64,000 bases of DNA from Verrucomicrobiales bacterium. GTDB taxonomy: Bacteria > Verrucomicrobiota > Verrucomicrobiia > Limisphaerales > UBA11320. Positions 479 through 61,741 of this stretch are shown here, one piece after another. The notes under the pieces are model-generated. The model did no database searches, was not told where the DNA came from, and worked only from the letters and a program-made list of their open reading frames with translations. Within the stretch, counting starts at the first letter, position 1; every line of letters starts with the position of its first letter. The translations under genes and the position numbers were made by a program. The stretch lies in contig JAEUHE010000032.1 of assembly GCA_016793885.1 (NCBI GenBank), positions 62,001 to 126,000 on the forward strand, written 5' to 3'.

Positions 479-1730
479 TTGAGGAGAGGGACTGGGGTGG
501 AGTGGGTTTTAGAGCGGGACGCGAGTCCGAGAGAACGGCGGAAATCTCCTGATAGACCCGGACGGGATCCGGACGAGCACCGACGGCCAGGTTCTCACGA
601 TCGATGATTTCTTGAACGCGGACGAGCCGAGCCGAAGGGACGCTTCGTCCGCCAAAACGCGAGTGCCGCCATTCCTTCAGGCAGAGGGCAAGCAATTCGC
701 CCGGAGCGATGTTCCGTCGGAGGAGCCCGACGAAGCCACCGCTCATGCTTCGACCGCGAATGGATGCCTGGGCCTCGCCGGATTCCTCCCGTCGGGGCTC
801 AAAGCTGGACGCGCCTCGCCACACCAAAAGAGCAGCCAGAGCACCGAGCGTGAAGAAGGGCAGCTCGAGCCGATAACGCCGAGCCAAGGAGGCCGTTCCC
901 GGGGCTTCCAGAACCCCCAGGTGTGCCTCATCGAAAACCACGTGGCGGGCGGATCCGATCAGCCAGGCGAGAAAGTCAGACGCCGGACTCGAGCGGAGTC
1001 CTTCATTGCTAAACAGGTATGAATCGGCGCACACCACCACCGTGCCCAAGCCCAGCGGCCGCTCAAGCGCCACCGTGTTGGTGCCCAGCGCCAACACCGG
1101 CGTCCAGTCCGCATGAGTCGAGACGAGCTGGCCCCGACTGCGCCACGCGACAGGGCGGAAGGAGGCATTCGCCACCACGCCAGTAGCTACCAGACTCAGG
1201 CGCAAAGAATTGGTGTTGTCCGCGGCGGCGGCGGCGCGAGCTTCAAACTGCCAGCGACTTCGCAGGTCAAGCAACCCGGCCTCGCCCCTCATTCCCGTCG
1301 TTGGAGGCTGAGCCGACCCCGGTCCACCCGCGGGGATCGCGCTCGAAGCCCCCAGTTGGCTCGAGGGTTCGAAATCACCCGCGTGCAACGCCAGCACGAG
1401 TCGGCCTCCTGACTGAACGAATTTCTCCAAGGCCAAGACTTCCTGGGCATCCGTCCGCAGATCCGCTAGCGGCAAGCCTAGCAGAAACAGCGTGGCGGAG
1501 GCCCCGGAGGGCAACCGCTTTGCGCTCTGCACATGACGTTCCACCTCCAGGTTCGGCAGGTCCTGGAGACTGTCGTGGAGGGCTTTGGCACCCAGCGGAT
1601 CGGATCGGAGGGTCGAATAGGGAGGATACATGTCTCCGACCCCGAATCGCCATTCGAACAGCCGCGCCATCAGGAGAGTGAAGGTTCCTAGAACCAGCAC
1701 CGATAGCAAAACGAGGGGCAGCCGACTCAT
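468..1730 (-). CDS. DUF4350 domain membrane protein of a MoxR cluster
   Basis: This 420-residue protein has one N-terminal membrane segment (about residues 5-23), a long extracytoplasmic part and a second hydrophobic segment near residue 290. The motif [17 protein letters not shown] near the start is typical of DUF4350, whose members sit beside MoxR, DUF58 and DUF4129 genes. A VVFDEAH motif occurs near residue 262. Its ATG overlaps the stop of the preceding gene by 4 bp (ATGA) and its own end overlaps the MoxR start, so it belongs to one operon. Function is unknown; a role in envelope or stress-related MoxR assembly is inferred from context only. Confidence 0.8.
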
Positions 1731-3391
1731 GAATTCGCCCCCCGGAGCGCTTCGCTGCGCTGGGCGAATCCGTTCAGCAACTGAGGATCCACCGGGTGGT
1801 TGCCATACCAGACACGCTCAAAGCTCTCCACCTGTTCGGTCAGCGCTTGATGGAGCATGGGCAGGGCATGCGCCTTCCGCTGCAAATCACGGACATAGTC
1901 GCGATTGGATTTGAAGGCCGCCAGGCTGATCAGGTTGCGATGAGCCAAATGGGCCAGACCGGCGAAGTGGAAAGCCCGCATCGCCAGCCGAAGCTCGCCC
2001 CGGGCCACCAACTCGTGCGCCAACGCCAACCATCCTTCCTGGGGAAGCTGGCTGGCCTGCACCCGCTCATCGGTGAGGTCCACCACCGCGGGACCGGCAT
2101 CGCCGGAAACGGCGGCGCTCGCCGGACGCGACCTGCGCCGCCACACCCGCCAGCCCAACACGCCCAGAACGAGGATCAGGCCCAGCACCGCCACCCAGGC
2201 CAGCAACCGAAACGGTGACAGCCAATCCATCGTGACTCTGGATCCCGCCGGGGCGGCAGGCGGGGTGCCCAAGAACTTCTTGATCGCGGCTTCGATGCGG
2301 TCGGCCAGACCACGAATAGCCTCCCCAAACCGTTTCATGCCCCGCTCGAGGCCAGACCAGAACTGCGCCCAAAACCCTTCCTGCTTCAGGTCCCTCGCCG
2401 GCGCGCCCTCGAAATCGCGAGGCAAGCGCCAGACATATTCTCGTTGGGCGAGCGTCGACTGAATGGCCTGATCCAGCTGCTGCGGATTGATCTGCCGAGC
2501 AGCCTCGGGCGGAGCTGATTGGCCTGCGGCAACCGCTGCCAACGACGCTCCGAAGAACAGCCATCCGGCCAGGCACAGGGTTCGGCCCCGCTGAAACGCG
2601 CGCAGTGCCACCAGCAGATCCTCGCCATTGCGGGTAGACTCCCCATACAGACTCCTCAGCACATAGACCGCCTTGGCTAGCGGATCGAGCAGGAGCAGAG
2701 TCAGGCCAAAGACACTTGCCAGCAGGGTGGAGTTAAGTGAACTCCAGGGACTCCGAGTCAGGGCCGATTCCACTCCCGTCAGCATCTTGAGCAGTTGTGG
2801 CACGGCAAAGCTCAAGGCCAGGAGATTGAAGAAAACCACCAGAGCGAAGAGGGATAACAGCCCGAGTAACGCGTGATTTTGAACCGGCCACAGCAAGGTA
2901 AGCCGCCACGCGCGAGCCAGGGACTGCCGGGGAGTTGAATCCGGGGAGGCCGCCAGCACCGTGAGCGACTGAAAAAATGGCACTACCCATCCCGCCGGCA
3001 GGGTGAGAACCGCGGCGAGTGGAATCAGGAAGAGGCCGAACGGCTGCAGTCCGACGGTGAGCGTGGCGGCCGTCAGGCATCGCCGGAAGGTCCATCCTTG
3101 GGGAGGCAGGCCCCGCGCCAGCGAGCCGAGTTGATCCGCCAGCCGGATCTGGGCCGACTTCGCAACCAGGAACAGCACGAGCATCAGGGCGGCTGACTCC
3201 ACCACGTGATCCCGGGCAAAGGGGCTGGTGCTCAGATCCGACCACACGTACAAAGCGGCCACCAAGAACGGGAGAGTTCCCGAGAGATACCAAAGCCAGC
3301 TGCTCCAACGTAGCTGACGCAATAACATGAACGCCTCCTCGATGAGTCCGAGGGCGGGCTGGCCGTCCGTTACCAGTAAGCGACGTTTCAT
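1727..3391 (-). CDS. Polytopic membrane protein with a DUF4129-like C-terminal domain
   Basis: About 554 residues from the chosen ATG; a TTG further upstream at 3439 would add 16 residues that look unlike a real N-terminus. The N-terminal half holds several membrane spans around LPFLVAALYVW, LMLVLFLVA and LFLIPLAAVLTL. A soluble segment of about 100 residues follows, then one more span (LLAWVAVLGLILVLGVLGW). The C-terminal region with SNRDYVRDLQRK and FERVWYGNHP resembles DUF4129, a family commonly found in MoxR/DUF58 clusters. It overlaps the DUF4350 gene by 4 bp. Function is unknown beyond membership of this membrane module. Confidence 0.75.
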   Translation of the reverse strand: MKRRLLVTDGQPALGLIEEAFMLLRQLRWSSWLWYLSGTLPFLVAALYVWSDLSTSPFARDHVVESAALMLVLFLVAKSAQIRLADQLGSLARGLPPQGWTFRRCLTAATLTVGLQPFGLFLIPLAAVLTLPAGWVVPFFQSLTVLAASPDSTPRQSLARAWRLTLLWPVQNHALLGLLSLFALVVFFNLLALSFAVPQLLKMLTGVESALTRSPWSSLNSTLLASVFGLTLLLLDPLAKAVYVLRSLYGESTRNGEDLLVALRAFQRGRTLCLAGWLFFGASLAAVAAGQSAPPEAARQINPQQLDQAIQSTLAQREYVWRLPRDFEGAPARDLKQEGFWAQFWSGLERGMKRFGEAIRGLADRIEAAIKKFLGTPPAAPAGSRVTMDWLSPFRLLAWVAVLGLILVLGVLGWRVWRRRSRPASAAVSGDAGPAVVDLTDERVQASQLPQEGWLALAHELVARGELRLAMRAFHFAGLAHLAHRNLISLAAFKSNRDYVRDLQRKAHALPMLHQALTEQVESFERVWYGNHPVDPQLLNGFAQRSEALRGANS

Positions 3392-3455
3392 GCCGTGCGC
3401 GCTCCAAGCGCAGGCAAGTGTTCCTGCCTCCGGGGCCAAAGCTCAAACCTAAACT

Positions 3456-9395: not shown

Positions 9396-10460
9396 ATGAT
9401 GGGTGTTCGCACCAAAACACGCCCTGCCGGGTCTGTGGTTCCCAGCTACGATGGTTCCGAGGCCTGGCGGCGAATTGTCGGTCCAGTAGACGGCTTTATC
9501 AAAGCCGCAGTGGATCGCTTAGAGCTTCAAATTCAACAGTTTGAGCCTGAAATAAAGGAATACATTGGCTATGCTCTGAAGGGCCAAGGAAAACATTTGC
9601 GTCCAGTTCTCGTTGCTTTGAGCGGAAATGCCACTCGCGCTGTCAATGATGGGCATATTTCGGCGGCCGTCATCGTGGAAATGGTTCACCTGGCGACGCT
9701 GGTGCACGACGACGTGATGGACGAAGCACAATTAAGACGAGCCAGGCCAACTCTGGCGGCGCAATGGGGGGGACACCTGGCGGTTTTGGTCGGAGATTGC
9801 CTCTTTGCGCATGCCCTCAAGCTGGCCTCCCAATACCCCACCCCGGAAGTCTGCCGCACGGTGGCGGGGTCCACCAACACGGTTTGCTCGGGGGAAATCC
9901 TGCAAGACCGCAACGCGGGCAACCTCAACCTCACTCCGGCCGAGTATTTTCGAGTCCTGAGGATGAAAACCGGCGAGCTATTCGCTCTCTCCGCCGAGTT
10001 AGGGGGGATTCTCAGCGACGCCCCGGTGCATCAACGCGAGGCCCTGCGCCGCTACGGCATGGCCTTGGGCACCGCTTACCAAGTCTACGACGACTGCCTG
10101 GATCTGTTTGGGACCGAGGAAGAGGCAGGAAAGACGCTGGGCAGCGATCTGGCCAAGGGCAAAGTCACTCTCCCGCTCTTGCTCTTGATGGAGCGATCGC
10201 AAGGCAGCGAACTGCAAGAACTCCGCGCCTGCCTCGCGGATTGGGAACCGCAGGACCTGCCCCGGCTGCAACAACTGCTGGATCAATACCAGACCTTCGA
10301 AGGATCGGCCAAGGTCGTGAAAGATCTCCTGGACGAATCTCGGCTCGCCCTGACCGAGCTTCCCGCTTCTCCGAGCAGGGATAGCCTCCACGAGTTAACG
10401 GATTTTCTCGCTGCGCAAATGACGAGCCTGGGTGATTCACCTCGCGCCTCGGCAGTATGA
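9396..10460 (+). CDS. Trans-polyprenyl diphosphate synthase
   Basis: A 354-residue all-trans isoprenyl diphosphate synthase that would extend farnesyl or geranylgeranyl diphosphate with isopentenyl diphosphate to make quinone side chains. The first aspartate-rich motif is HDDVMDEAQLRRARPT (about 104-119) and the second is YDDCLDLFG (about 231-239), with GQGKHLRP near residue 63 and KTGELF near 191. The chain length cannot be read reliably. It overlaps the next gene by 4 bp (ATGA), so it heads an operon with an ECF sigma factor. A second, quite different synthase is encoded at 59984. Confidence 0.93.
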   Translation: MMGVRTKTRPAGSVVPSYDGSEAWRRIVGPVDGFIKAAVDRLELQIQQFEPEIKEYIGYALKGQGKHLRPVLVALSGNATRAVNDGHISAAVIVEMVHLATLVHDDVMDEAQLRRARPTLAAQWGGHLAVLVGDCLFAHALKLASQYPTPEVCRTVAGSTNTVCSGEILQDRNAGNLNLTPAEYFRVLRMKTGELFALSAELGGILSDAPVHQREALRRYGMALGTAYQVYDDCLDLFGTEEEAGKTLGSDLAKGKVTLPLLLLMERSQGSELQELRACLADWEPQDLPRLQQLLDQYQTFEGSAKVVKDLLDESRLALTELPASPSRDSLHELTDFLAAQMTSLGDSPRASAV

Positions 10461-58063: not shown

Positions 58064-59467
58064 TTGCCAACGCGTATGGGCTGTGACTGGAACAAAACAC
58101 GGGCTGGGTATCGAGGGGGACTCTATCTCCTGTTGGTAATGATGCTCGGCTGGGCGGTCGGTTGTCCCGCGGCACAGTCCCTGGTGTGGAAGAAGGACAC
58201 CGATAAGGTCAGCGCCAACATCCAGTCTGCTCCGTTGGAGGAGGTGCTCAACCTCATGTCCGAGGCCACCGGGTGGGAGATCTACGTTCAGCCGGAGTCG
58301 GAGCAAGTGGTCAACGTGAAGTTTCAAGACCGTCCCGCCTCCGACGCGCTCAAGCTGCTTCTAGGGGGCCTCAGCTACGCAGTCCTGCCGCAAGCCGAGG
58401 GTCCATCACGACTGCTCGTGTTCCGCACCAACATCAGCCAAGCCACTGAGCTGATCAGCCCCAAACGCGATCCCAAGGATGATACCTCCAAGCCGATCCC
58501 CACCGAACTGGTGGTCACGCTCAAACCGGGAGTCAACATCGATGACATCGCCAAGAAAGTGGATGGCAAAGTCGTTGGCCGGAATGACGAACTGCGCACG
58601 TATCGTCTCCAGTTCGAAACGGCAGAGGCGGCCGAAAAGGCCCGCAAACTCCTTTCCGAAGATCCGGAAGTGACGAAGGTGGAGAGCAATTACAACGTCG
58701 AACGCCCGCCAGAAATCAAGCCGGTCGATCTTAGCTCCGTACCCGAGTTGAGCCTCAAAGCCGAAAGCCCGGCGAACGATTGCGAGAAAGTCATCGTGGG
58801 ATTAATCGACACCTCCGTCCCCAGGACGGGCGGAAGCCTCGACGGATTCCTGCTGCCCCAAATTGACGTGGCGGGGCCTGGTCCCACTTCCTACACCAGC
58901 CCGCCCCATGGGGAATCGATGGCGAGCACCATCGTCCGCGGCGCGGATTTCTCCTCAGGTGGAAAAGCGAAAATCAGCATTCTTCCCGTAAACGTGTACG
59001 GACAAAATGTCCAGGCGAACACCTACGATGTCGCCAACGGAATCCTGCAAGCGATCAAGGCCGGAGCGAAGATCATCAACCTCAGCCTAGGCAGCGAGGG
59101 ACCAAGCCCCTACCTCGCCGAGGTCATTCGCCTGGGACAAGCACAGGACGTCATCTTCATTGCAGCCGCAGGCAATCGCCCCACCACCACTCCCACCTAT
59201 CCCGCAGCCGATCCGAAGGTGGTAGCCGTGACCGCCAGCGATCGGACCGGCAACCTGGCCTCCTATGCGAACCGGGGAGAGTTCGTCGATGTGATCGCCC
59301 CCGGAAGCACCATCTTTCAATTCAACGGCCAGCGGTATTTGTCGAGCGGCACCTCGGTGGCCACCGCCTACGTGAGTGGGCTGGCTGCGTCCATGGCCGA
59401 TCCCTGTAACAAGTCCTACTCCGCCGTCGAGGCCCAGATCCGCAAGGACCTGAGCGTGAGGAAGTGA
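58064..59467 (+). CDS. Exported S8 (subtilisin-like) serine peptidase with secretin-type N-terminal domain
   Basis: A 467-residue protein. The signal region (LYLLLVMMLGWAVGC) contains a Cys near residue 34 that could be lipidated. An STN-like domain (about 47-110; VSANIQSAPLEEVLNLM) and an inhibitor-I9-like prodomain (about 147-210; TELVVTLKPGVNIDDIAKKV) follow. The catalytic triad of the S8 fold is Asp249 (GLIDTSV), His282 (PPHGESMAS) and Ser431 (SGTSVATAYVSG), with Asn371 as the oxyanion residue. The substrate is unknown. The start is a TTG four bases after GGAGG; an ATG four codons later is also possible. Confidence 0.85.
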   Translation: MPTRMGCDWNKTRAGYRGGLYLLLVMMLGWAVGCPAAQSLVWKKDTDKVSANIQSAPLEEVLNLMSEATGWEIYVQPESEQVVNVKFQDRPASDALKLLLGGLSYAVLPQAEGPSRLLVFRTNISQATELISPKRDPKDDTSKPIPTELVVTLKPGVNIDDIAKKVDGKVVGRNDELRTYRLQFETAEAAEKARKLLSEDPEVTKVESNYNVERPPEIKPVDLSSVPELSLKAESPANDCEKVIVGLIDTSVPRTGGSLDGFLLPQIDVAGPGPTSYTSPPHGESMASTIVRGADFSSGGKAKISILPVNVYGQNVQANTYDVANGILQAIKAGAKIINLSLGSEGPSPYLAEVIRLGQAQDVIFIAAAGNRPTTTPTYPAADPKVVAVTASDRTGNLASYANRGEFVDVIAPGSTIFQFNGQRYLSSGTSVATAYVSGLAASMADPCNKSYSAVEAQIRKDLSVRK

Positions 59468-59983: not shown

Positions 59984-61741
59984 CTAGGTGGTGACCAGGT
60001 CACGCAGTTCGGCAGGCTGAGTCGAGGCGGCCTGCGCGCCCAGATTCTTAACCTCGAACTCCTTGCACCAACCTTTGATCTCCGTGTCGTTGAAGATCTT
60101 TCCAACCAGACGACGAAGCAATCCCTTCAAGCTGGCATTTTCTAAATCGCGCAGACAACGAATCGCCTCTTCCTTGTAGGTTTCCAAAAGAGTGCGGGCT
60201 CGCTCGTCCGCCTTCAATTCCCGATAGAGTTGCTCCACTTGGGCAATCGTCATCCCAGCCGGCAATTGACGTTTCCACAGCGACTCAGTGACCTGTTTGA
60301 CATCGCCTTTGGCGCGGTCATGCGCAGCGGCGAGCAAGAGGCTCGGCCGGAATCCCGCAATATCATTGGTCTCGCCGGCTTCTCCCAAATCGCTCAGGTC
60401 ATCGCGAATCTGGTATGCGACCCCGATCGCCTCGCTGTAGACGTGCAGGACCTCCTCCACCTCTTCGAACGCGTCGACGTCGGAGTACAGAACGCCCACC
60501 TTCAGAGCGACCTCGAAAGCCGGAGCCGTCTTCTGCCGGAAAATATCGAGGACCTGATTCTGGTTCATCGGCGATGGCTGCCGCATCCAGCAGAGTTCAG
60601 CGCCTTGGCCCCGACAGAGACTGCGCTGGCCTTGGCTGGCCACCTCGAGCATGCGCACTTTCTGAGCATCGCTCACCTTGAGCCCCCCGATCAGCCGATA
60701 GCCTTCTCCGATAAGCAAGTCACCCACGTTCAAGGCCACCGCCAGGCCATGCTCCTCATGGAGCGTTTTCTCTCCGTACCGTGTGGCATCACCGTCCTCG
60801 ATATCATCATGGATCAACGAGGCCTTGTGAAAACATTCCACCGCCACCGCGAGTTTCATGAGGTCCGCCGGAATAGGTTTGCCGGGGGTGTCACTCATCG
60901 CTTGGTAAGCGGCTACCGTCAGCAAAGGTCGCCAGCGTTTGCCGGCACGCATCAACCACTCCCGAGCGATGCGTTCGGTCTCACCGGTGGCCGTGCCGAA
61001 GATCAGTTCCAAGGAGGTCGGGGTGAACGCCGTTTCCACTTCGTCCTTCAAGGCCCCCAGATCCATCCGGCGCGTTCGATCATCACTGGTCAAATGGATG
61101 TAGTCCCACACCCAGTCCAAGTCGACGGTGGTATCGATGCAATCATCCTGGAGCAGAGGCACGGCCACGCCCGGAATGGCCGCCGCTTCCATGAAGGGGA
61201 AGGCCCTTTCCAGGACGCTCAGACAGCTCACCCCCACGATAGCCTCGATTTTGCCGGTCTGGATGAGAGACATGACGATGGCGCTCCCTTCGGCCACCAA
61301 GACGGCATAGCCCAGTTTCTCAGCCTCCGCTTGCAGATCCTGGATGGTGCACAACCCGCATTGCTTGCAGAGCAGCCCGAATTCATCGAAGGGAGCCGGA
61401 CACTTGTTCTCGACGCGCAGACACTTGGGCAGCAGCAATAGGCGTTTTTCGAACGGAACGGATGCCAGCGTCTCGCGCCACATCTCGTTGTTGATCAGCA
61501 CCGCAATGTAATCCCGGTAGATCGGATCACACTGGAGCAGTGCCAGGACTTTGTCGGCGTGCTCGCGCAGCTGCTCGAAAGGCTGCGGAGGAACCGGATT
61601 GAACTCCGCGATGTAGTTACGAATGAAGTGGAGAATGCGATTCCGTTCCGGAACGGTTTGCGGGACGTTCTTCTTCGGCGTCCGAAACCGCTGCTGGATG
61701 CTATGACGCGGGATCGCGAACTGGATCGGCTGAACATTCAT
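59984..61741 (-). CDS. DUF116 - polyprenyl synthase fusion protein
   Basis: A 585-residue protein. Residues about 55-215 look like DUF116, a cysteine-rich domain: KCLRVENKCPAP (Cys107, Cys114) and LLCKQCGLC (Cys125, Cys128, Cys131), then Cys173 and Cys201. From about 240 to 560 it is a trans-polyprenyl synthase with HDDIEDGDATRYG (first motif, about 311) and IRDDLSDLG (second motif, about 445). A link between a metal-cluster-type domain and a prenyl chain-length enzyme is unusual and its role is not known. It is unlike the stand-alone synthase at 9396. It has no obvious operon partner. Confidence 0.85.
   Translation of the reverse strand: MNVQPIQFAIPRHSIQQRFRTPKKNVPQTVPERNRILHFIRNYIAEFNPVPPQPFEQLREHADKVLALLQCDPIYRDYIAVLINNEMWRETLASVPFEKRLLLLPKCLRVENKCPAPFDEFGLLCKQCGLCTIQDLQAEAEKLGYAVLVAEGSAIVMSLIQTGKIEAIVGVSCLSVLERAFPFMEAAAIPGVAVPLLQDDCIDTTVDLDWVWDYIHLTSDDRTRRMDLGALKDEVETAFTPTSLELIFGTATGETERIAREWLMRAGKRWRPLLTVAAYQAMSDTPGKPIPADLMKLAVAVECFHKASLIHDDIEDGDATRYGEKTLHEEHGLAVALNVGDLLIGEGYRLIGGLKVSDAQKVRMLEVASQGQRSLCRGQGAELCWMRQPSPMNQNQVLDIFRQKTAPAFEVALKVGVLYSDVDAFEEVEEVLHVYSEAIGVAYQIRDDLSDLGEAGETNDIAGFRPSLLLAAAHDRAKGDVKQVTESLWKRQLPAGMTIAQVEQLYRELKADERARTLLETYKEEAIRCLRDLENASLKGLLRRLVGKIFNDTEIKGWCKEFEVKNLGAQAASTQPAELRDLVTT

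Follow-up and report, generated by a model that had tools for sequence, protein, structure and literature searches.

In the accessible part of their paper, Makarova et al. (2015; PMC5898192) devote one sentence to a fusion protein of Pirellula staleyi, Psta_0175, which has the same DUF116 domain and the same reported fusion architecture as the protein presented here. For DUF116 (COG1852, arCOG02078) the same text predicts a flavodoxin-like fold and a role in electron transfer, and it lists at least six conserved cysteines including a CxxCxxC motif. Archaeal DUF116 proteins are described there with N-terminal membrane segments, whereas inspection of the window protein by eye reveals no such segment. 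In the open-licence literature we found no role for DUF116 in print beyond this prediction, as worded in the accessible text; nor did titles and beginnings of abstracts contain a gene association at the level of a pathway. The fusion as such is already known yet uncharacterised. New with respect to the accessible part of PMC5898192 are its genomic context, i.e., the gene set and the co-occurrence, and further the cysteine survey and the structure model.

Other described systems share parts with the fusion and its surroundings. The trans-isoprenyl diphosphate synthases (FPPS, GGPPS and long-chain enzymes) have in common with it the fold, both DDxxD motifs, a conserved Lys-Thr and a conserved Gln. 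The fusion differs from them by Y322 where an RRG motif has its second Arg, by the extra N-terminal DUF116 domain and by forming a clade of its own. The sHdr-LbpA system of sulphur oxidation comprises a GcvH-like lipoate protein and heterodisulfide-reductase-type Fe-S proteins (PMC6067878, accessible part). A GcvH-like protein and a ferredoxin-like protein, here called HDR, are encoded near some fusions; unlike the sulphur-oxidation set, as far as that text describes it, the set around the fusion includes prenyl synthase, terpene cyclase and radical SAM genes. With the squalene-hopene cyclase (hpn) pathway it shares a class II cyclase with a DxDD motif and a radical SAM enzyme. However, the cyclase (CYC) scores 102.2 bits against a hopene cyclase cut-off of 431.1, and the radical SAM protein 36.5 bits against an HpnH cut-off of 225.05.

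The window, i.e., the whole stretch of 64,000 nucleotides analysed here, contains the following gene and domains:

59984..61741, minus strand: DUF116-polyprenyl synthase fusion gene, 585 aa (ORF, Pfam, 22-row alignment A1)
61100..61546, minus strand: DUF116 domain, residues 66-214, predicted alpha/beta flavodoxin-like fold (Pfam, models, fold search)
60269..60973, minus strand: trans-polyprenyl synthase domain, residues 257-491 (Pfam; structure match 6kd7)

The ORF starts with ATG and runs for 585 codons inside a stop-free frame of 591 codons. Both domains score far above their Pfam cut-offs, DUF116 (PF01976) with E 1.7e-36 and 125.5 bits (cut-off 25) and polyprenyl_synt (PF00348) with E 1.9e-40 and 139.1 bits (cut-off 27). 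The protein is a member of both families, and an earlier note on this DNA correctly read it as DUF116 joined to a full prenyl synthase. Modelled together, as that note had proposed, the two domains form one confident AlphaFold2 model (mean pLDDT 91.3, pTM 0.88). Since in addition 21 full-length or nearly full-length fusions from related genomes align with the window protein from end to end (46-83% identity), the frameshift or mis-set start that the note had named as a possible refutation is ruled out. At 58064-59467 on the plus strand the window also has an ORF which by eye resembles a secretin-type N-terminal domain plus a subtilisin-like protease.

The fusion is widely distributed. It was present in 23 of 40 genomes of a set of relatives, the window's own genome included, and missing from the other 17, three of which are of the same genus. 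Genomes with DUF116 numbered 37 of 194 in the window's phylum and 70 of 199 in that of a Rhodopirellula (G238, locus L068), with many open frames of fusion length. A pattern derived from the synthase half retrieved at least 116 loci, at least 65 in Planctomycetota, at least 30 in Verrucomicrobiota and at least 10 in Bacteroidota; among the matches listed four further loci are from Acidobacteriota, two each from Lentisphaerota and Kiritimatiellota, and three are without assignment. The cysteine cluster is located in the same ORF at 102 of the 116 loci among the matches listed, which is no frequency among all synthases because the pattern was written from the synthase half of fusions. Nine of the other 14 loci are cut by a sequence edge, among them L095, whose N-terminal part can still be read; L081, L132, L143, L170 and L174 make up the rest. 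In L174 (Kiritimatiellae, 439 aa), which has the synthase signature, no recognisable cysteine cluster was found upstream in any frame. The architecture is not rare: it occurs in many genomes, mostly of Planctomycetota and Verrucomicrobiota, and as one clade among the sequences compared. Of the other refuting condition named in the note, a common and characterised architecture, the first half holds and the second does not, the Pirellula staleyi case being the one-sentence mention in the accessible part of PMC5898192.

The conserved cysteines of the DUF116 domain are:

61349..61423, minus strand: cysteine cluster C107, C114, C125, C128, C131 (C-x6-C ... CxxCxxC; sequence, conservation)
61223..61225, minus strand: sixth conserved cysteine, C173, in GVSC directly after a strand of the model (conservation, model)
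61139..61141, minus strand: seventh conserved cysteine, C201 (conservation)

The five cysteines first noticed (107, 114, 125, 128, 131) are real, and C173 and C201 belong to the same set. Of the 62 fusions in alignment A2, 58 retain the complete set of seven; A2 combines 55 of 66 representatives (drawn from 87 complete fusions among the matches listed), six relatives and the window protein. With seven cysteines this protein has the six or more, including CxxCxxC, of the DUF116 family. When fusions are aligned with three stand-alone DUF116 proteins of 22-26% identity, the cysteine-poor rows being left out, the seven are invariant. The conserved multi-cysteine centre is probably an Fe-S centre, as predicted for the family.

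The remaining four of the 62 rows (L081, L132, L143, L170) all lack C114, C125 and C173. They constitute one clade nested among planctomycete fusions in which the DUF116 domain and the synthase motifs are kept. The cluster is also missing in L095, a partial sequence and for this reason absent from A2. Genomes G233 and G237 possess, besides a cysteine-poor copy, a second fusion whose operon includes genes for GcvH, a CobW GTPase and HDR, in G233 also radical SAM and CYC. Because of this second fusion the cysteine-poor copy is a paralogue there, and a coupling of cysteine loss to HDR loss, which we had considered, is rejected.

In the synthase half the features are:

60794..60808, minus strand: first aspartate motif DDIED, residues 312-316 (sequence, alignment)
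60389..60403, minus strand: second aspartate motif DDLSD, residues 447-451 (sequence, alignment)
60776..60781, minus strand: R321-Y322, Tyr at the second Arg of RRG (alignment, FPPS-type comparison)
9396..10460, plus strand: stand-alone long-chain-type synthase outside the fusion family (Pfam, NCBIfam, tree)

Both aspartate motifs are thus present as first read. D312, D313 and D316 of the first motif are found in 62/62 fusions. In the second, D448 is likewise found in 62/62, position 447 is D in 41 and N in 21, and position 451 is D in 60 and E in 2. G267, R271, P272, Q379, K404 and T405 are invariant in the 62 fusions. After the first motif the fusions have R-Y-G instead of RRG, a typical yet not strictly defining feature of trans-polyprenyl synthases; Y322 occurs in 62/62, whereas all eight FPPS-type loci compared have RR at this place. 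The second Arg, we assume, is a ligand of the IPP diphosphate in known enzymes. Superfamily membership stands in spite of R-Y-G; the use of substrates may differ. A307 at -5 and F304 at -8 before the first motif are both invariant in A2, and by the chain-length rules, as we take them to be, Ala at -5 with Phe at -8 would fit a chain longer than C15.

In a quick tree with SH-aLRT values and no bootstrap, from which one FPPS row (L031) had been dropped and which has a long branch to the synthase at 9396, the 62 fusions form one clade against eight other synthases (SH-aLRT 100). The synthase at 9396-10460 has its best NCBIfam match, below the cut-off, in TIGR02748 (heptaprenyl synthase component II); it is indeed of a different type, as had been claimed, being long-chain-type and outside the fusion clade. 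A synthase with an FPPS-type first motif, DDxxxxD, is encoded on another contig (C159) of the same genome. With an FPPS-type and a long-chain-type enzyme already present, the fusion is an extra, third synthase. An assignment to the family 2 encapsulin cargo polyprenyl transferases (NF041169, NCBIfam) was rejected at 118.5 bits with a cut-off of 450.

In the predicted structure the synthase half matches GGPP/FPP synthases of the all-alpha isoprenoid synthase fold (6kd7, Z 33.7, rmsd 2.3, 313 aligned). The DUF116 domain modelled alone (pLDDT 92.7) is predicted to have three helices followed by an alpha/beta fold. For this model Foldseek returned no known fold below E 0.1 (best E 0.11). With VIA-align the best match was a type II dehydroquinase (Z 8.1, rmsd 3.5, 106 aligned); residues 11-141 of 8rvy_A, a chain of an Hdr complex, followed with Z 7.6, rmsd 3.8 and 105 aligned, a match tied with dehydroquinases and in a Z range which VIA-align calls common. 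Its length suggests that 8rvy_A is HdrA; in that Hdr complex two cubane clusters sit in the N terminus of HdrA (PMC12350162, accessible part). The alpha/beta model is in line with the 2015 prediction of a flavodoxin-like fold (PMC5898192, accessible part), an agreement which does not prove a function.

To survey the gene neighbourhood, ORFs around the fusion were predicted with a simple longest-ORF rule and clustered, with cluster labels of our own, and cluster X7 (19 loci), consisting of antisense ORFs of the fusion, was left out. So counted among the 116 loci listed, CYC is encountered 59 times, HDR 35, radical SAM 32, a second cyclase-like protein (CYC2) 29, CHL 19 (Planctomycetota only), a CobW GTPase 12, a GcvH-like protein 9 and a second radical SAM type 6. 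One or more of these eight recurrent families occur at 90 of the 116 loci among the matches listed; at the other 26 no pathway gene lies within the sequence stretch. The usual order is GcvH-GTPase-HDR-radical SAM-fusion-CYC2-CYC; in many planctomycetes it is CYC-fusion-CHL.

Motifs were counted in near-full-length members of these families. CYC is squalene-hopene-cyclase-like (SQHop_cyclase), and 46 of 47 sequences carry DxDD; CYC2 resembles the Prenyltrans toroid weakly, and none of 27 sequences carries DxDD. In HDR, a ferredoxin-like 2[4Fe-4S] protein to which a second part is usually joined, the ferredoxin motif occurs in 29/29. Since a profile search of the PDB with its N-terminal domain found no Hdr, the likeness of HDR to HdrA is one seen by eye. 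The radical SAM protein has CxxxCxxC in 26/26 and is closest to the NirJ/Ahb models, far below every cut-off shown. The GTPase matches cobW, the GcvH-like protein GCV_H. CHL is a conserved protein of about 188 aa encoded after the fusion (L073:3207-3764, with homologues at 18 other planctomycete loci). A suspected identity as a chorismate lyase was not confirmed, no Pfam family being found at E 1e-3. Weak DUF4388 and UTRA hits were all that appeared, and a PDB search gave nothing convincing.

In the 40 related genomes the same genes accompany the fusion. Where it is present (n=23), HDR is found in 22, radical SAM in 21, CYC in 21 and CYC2 in 20; where it is missing (n=17), the numbers are 0, 0, 3 and 1. 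Fisher tests, which ignore shared ancestry while the 40 genomes span 36 families, give p values of 2e-10 (HDR), 2e-9 (radical SAM) and 3e-6 (CYC). Thresholds for presence (about E<1e-40 for HDR, CYC and CYC2, <1e-60 for radical SAM) were chosen after a wide gap had been seen, and an HDR match at 4e-4 in G038 was scored absent. G006, G015 and G038 have a CYC-type cyclase without the fusion and without a strong HDR or radical SAM match, G006 also CYC2. In the window's genome two HDR genes and the radical SAM gene are together on contig C212, CYC is on C145, flanked by genes which by eye are thiC-like and DAHP-synthase-like, and CYC2 is on C256. As all these contigs differ from that of the fusion, the set is kept though scattered. 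Conserved neighbours and co-occurrence strongly favour the earlier suggestion that the fusion is part of a specific lipid pathway.

What is observed, i.e., the fusion, the conservation of cysteines and aspartates, the single clade, the gene neighbourhood and the co-occurrence, leads us to propose, with about an even chance of being correct, an undescribed pathway to a cyclised isoprenoid for which this protein is the dedicated prenyl synthase, its DUF116 domain serving as an Fe-S module for electron transfer. From the sequences we infer the Fe-S binding, the electron flow, the order of steps and the substrate as follows. The C-terminal half would condense isoprenyl diphosphates, and the chain would be passed to the squalene-hopene-cyclase-like CYC, with the second toroid protein, CYC2, as a probable partner. 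The seven conserved cysteines of DUF116 would hold one or two iron-sulphur clusters and take up electrons from the 2[4Fe-4S] ferredoxin-like HDR; perhaps the lipoyl (GcvH-like) protein serves as a dithiol carrier in this supply. The electrons would be used in a reductive or radical reaction of the chain, the simplest acceptor being the pathway's radical SAM enzyme. Against the proposal stand the cysteine-poor planctomycete paralogues and the 26 of 116 listed loci devoid of pathway genes, further CYC in 3/17 and CYC2 in 1/17 relatives lacking the fusion, the position of many planctomycete stand-alone DUF116 genes between fmt-like and rsmB-like genes, where an isoprenoid function would not be expected, the PDB profile search with the HDR N-terminal domain that found no Hdr, and, as to the predicted structure, the tie of the 8rvy match with dehydroquinases and the Foldseek search with no match below E 0.1.

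A regulatory role off the electron path appears rather unlikely. In this case the DUF116 cluster would report the oxygen or iron state and switch the synthase. It would then be understandable that the domain is covalently joined to a non-redox enzyme and that a paralogue can lose cysteines while its synthase motifs remain. Yet no ligand or regulatory partner was found, and an electron supply accounts better than sensing alone for how closely the fusion co-occurs with the 2[4Fe-4S] ferredoxin-like HDR and the radical SAM enzyme. The related idea of the earlier note, chain elongation coupled to redox state, is unsupported: no test links the cysteine centre to prenyl transfer, and the paralogue clade without most cysteines still keeps the synthase motifs.

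The domain could also be structural, a docking part that brings the synthase into contact with the cyclase or the radical SAM enzyme in one complex, any metal being structural as well. The persistence of the domain without most cysteines in the clade of L081, L132, L143 and L170 and in L095 speaks for such a role. We nevertheless rate it as improbable, for seven cysteines in 58/62 fusions and in distant stand-alone DUF116 proteins exceed what a docking surface needs.

We see a slim chance that the fusion is bifunctional: it would make an allylic prenyl diphosphate, and the DUF116 Fe-S centre would then carry out or feed an IspH-like reaction in which the diphosphate end is reductively removed or coupled, yielding a hydrocarbon for the class II cyclase. 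This is suggested because stand-alone DUF116 genes adjoin ispH-like genes (L044, L210) and because Y322 replaces the Arg presumed to bind IPP. It would mean a squalene-synthase-free route to cyclised isoprenoids. Both aspartate motifs and the matches to GGPP/FPP synthases (Z up to 33.7) would also allow an ordinary synthase that sets the chain length of quinones, undecaprenyl or hopanoids and to which another domain happens to be fused. This reading is very doubtful: synthases of FPPS type and of long-chain type are already encoded in the genome, the identified neighbours are not quinone or hpn genes, and an enzyme missing from 17 of 40 relatives, three of them in the same genus, is not housekeeping.

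If the dedicated synthase with an electron-transferring DUF116 module is the right reading, many Planctomycetota and Verrucomicrobiota and some Bacteroidota and Acidobacteriota possess an undescribed isoprenoid pathway, and a defined set of genes becomes available in which the role of DUF116 can be tested. Should these phyla make a new polycyclic lipid, this would be important for membrane biology and for the interpretation of lipid biomarkers in sediments.

A general isoprenoid role for stand-alone DUF116 is unsupported because many planctomycete copies (L204, L207, L209, L214, L215, L218, L224) sit between genes which by eye are fmt-like and rsmB-like. Other surroundings were also seen, all by eye. 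At L044:503-1956 a stand-alone DUF116 gene is adjacent to an ispH-like gene that runs in the opposite direction. At L210:1296-2567 on the minus strand (G288, of the same phylum as G238) an IspH-like C-terminal part extends into a long membrane region resembling UbiA-type prenyltransferases, and a DUF116 gene with a hydrophobic N-terminus comes after it on the same strand. In L038 and L049, near 1460-3429, a stand-alone DUF116 gene adjoins phytoene-desaturase-like and aldehyde-dehydrogenase-like genes.
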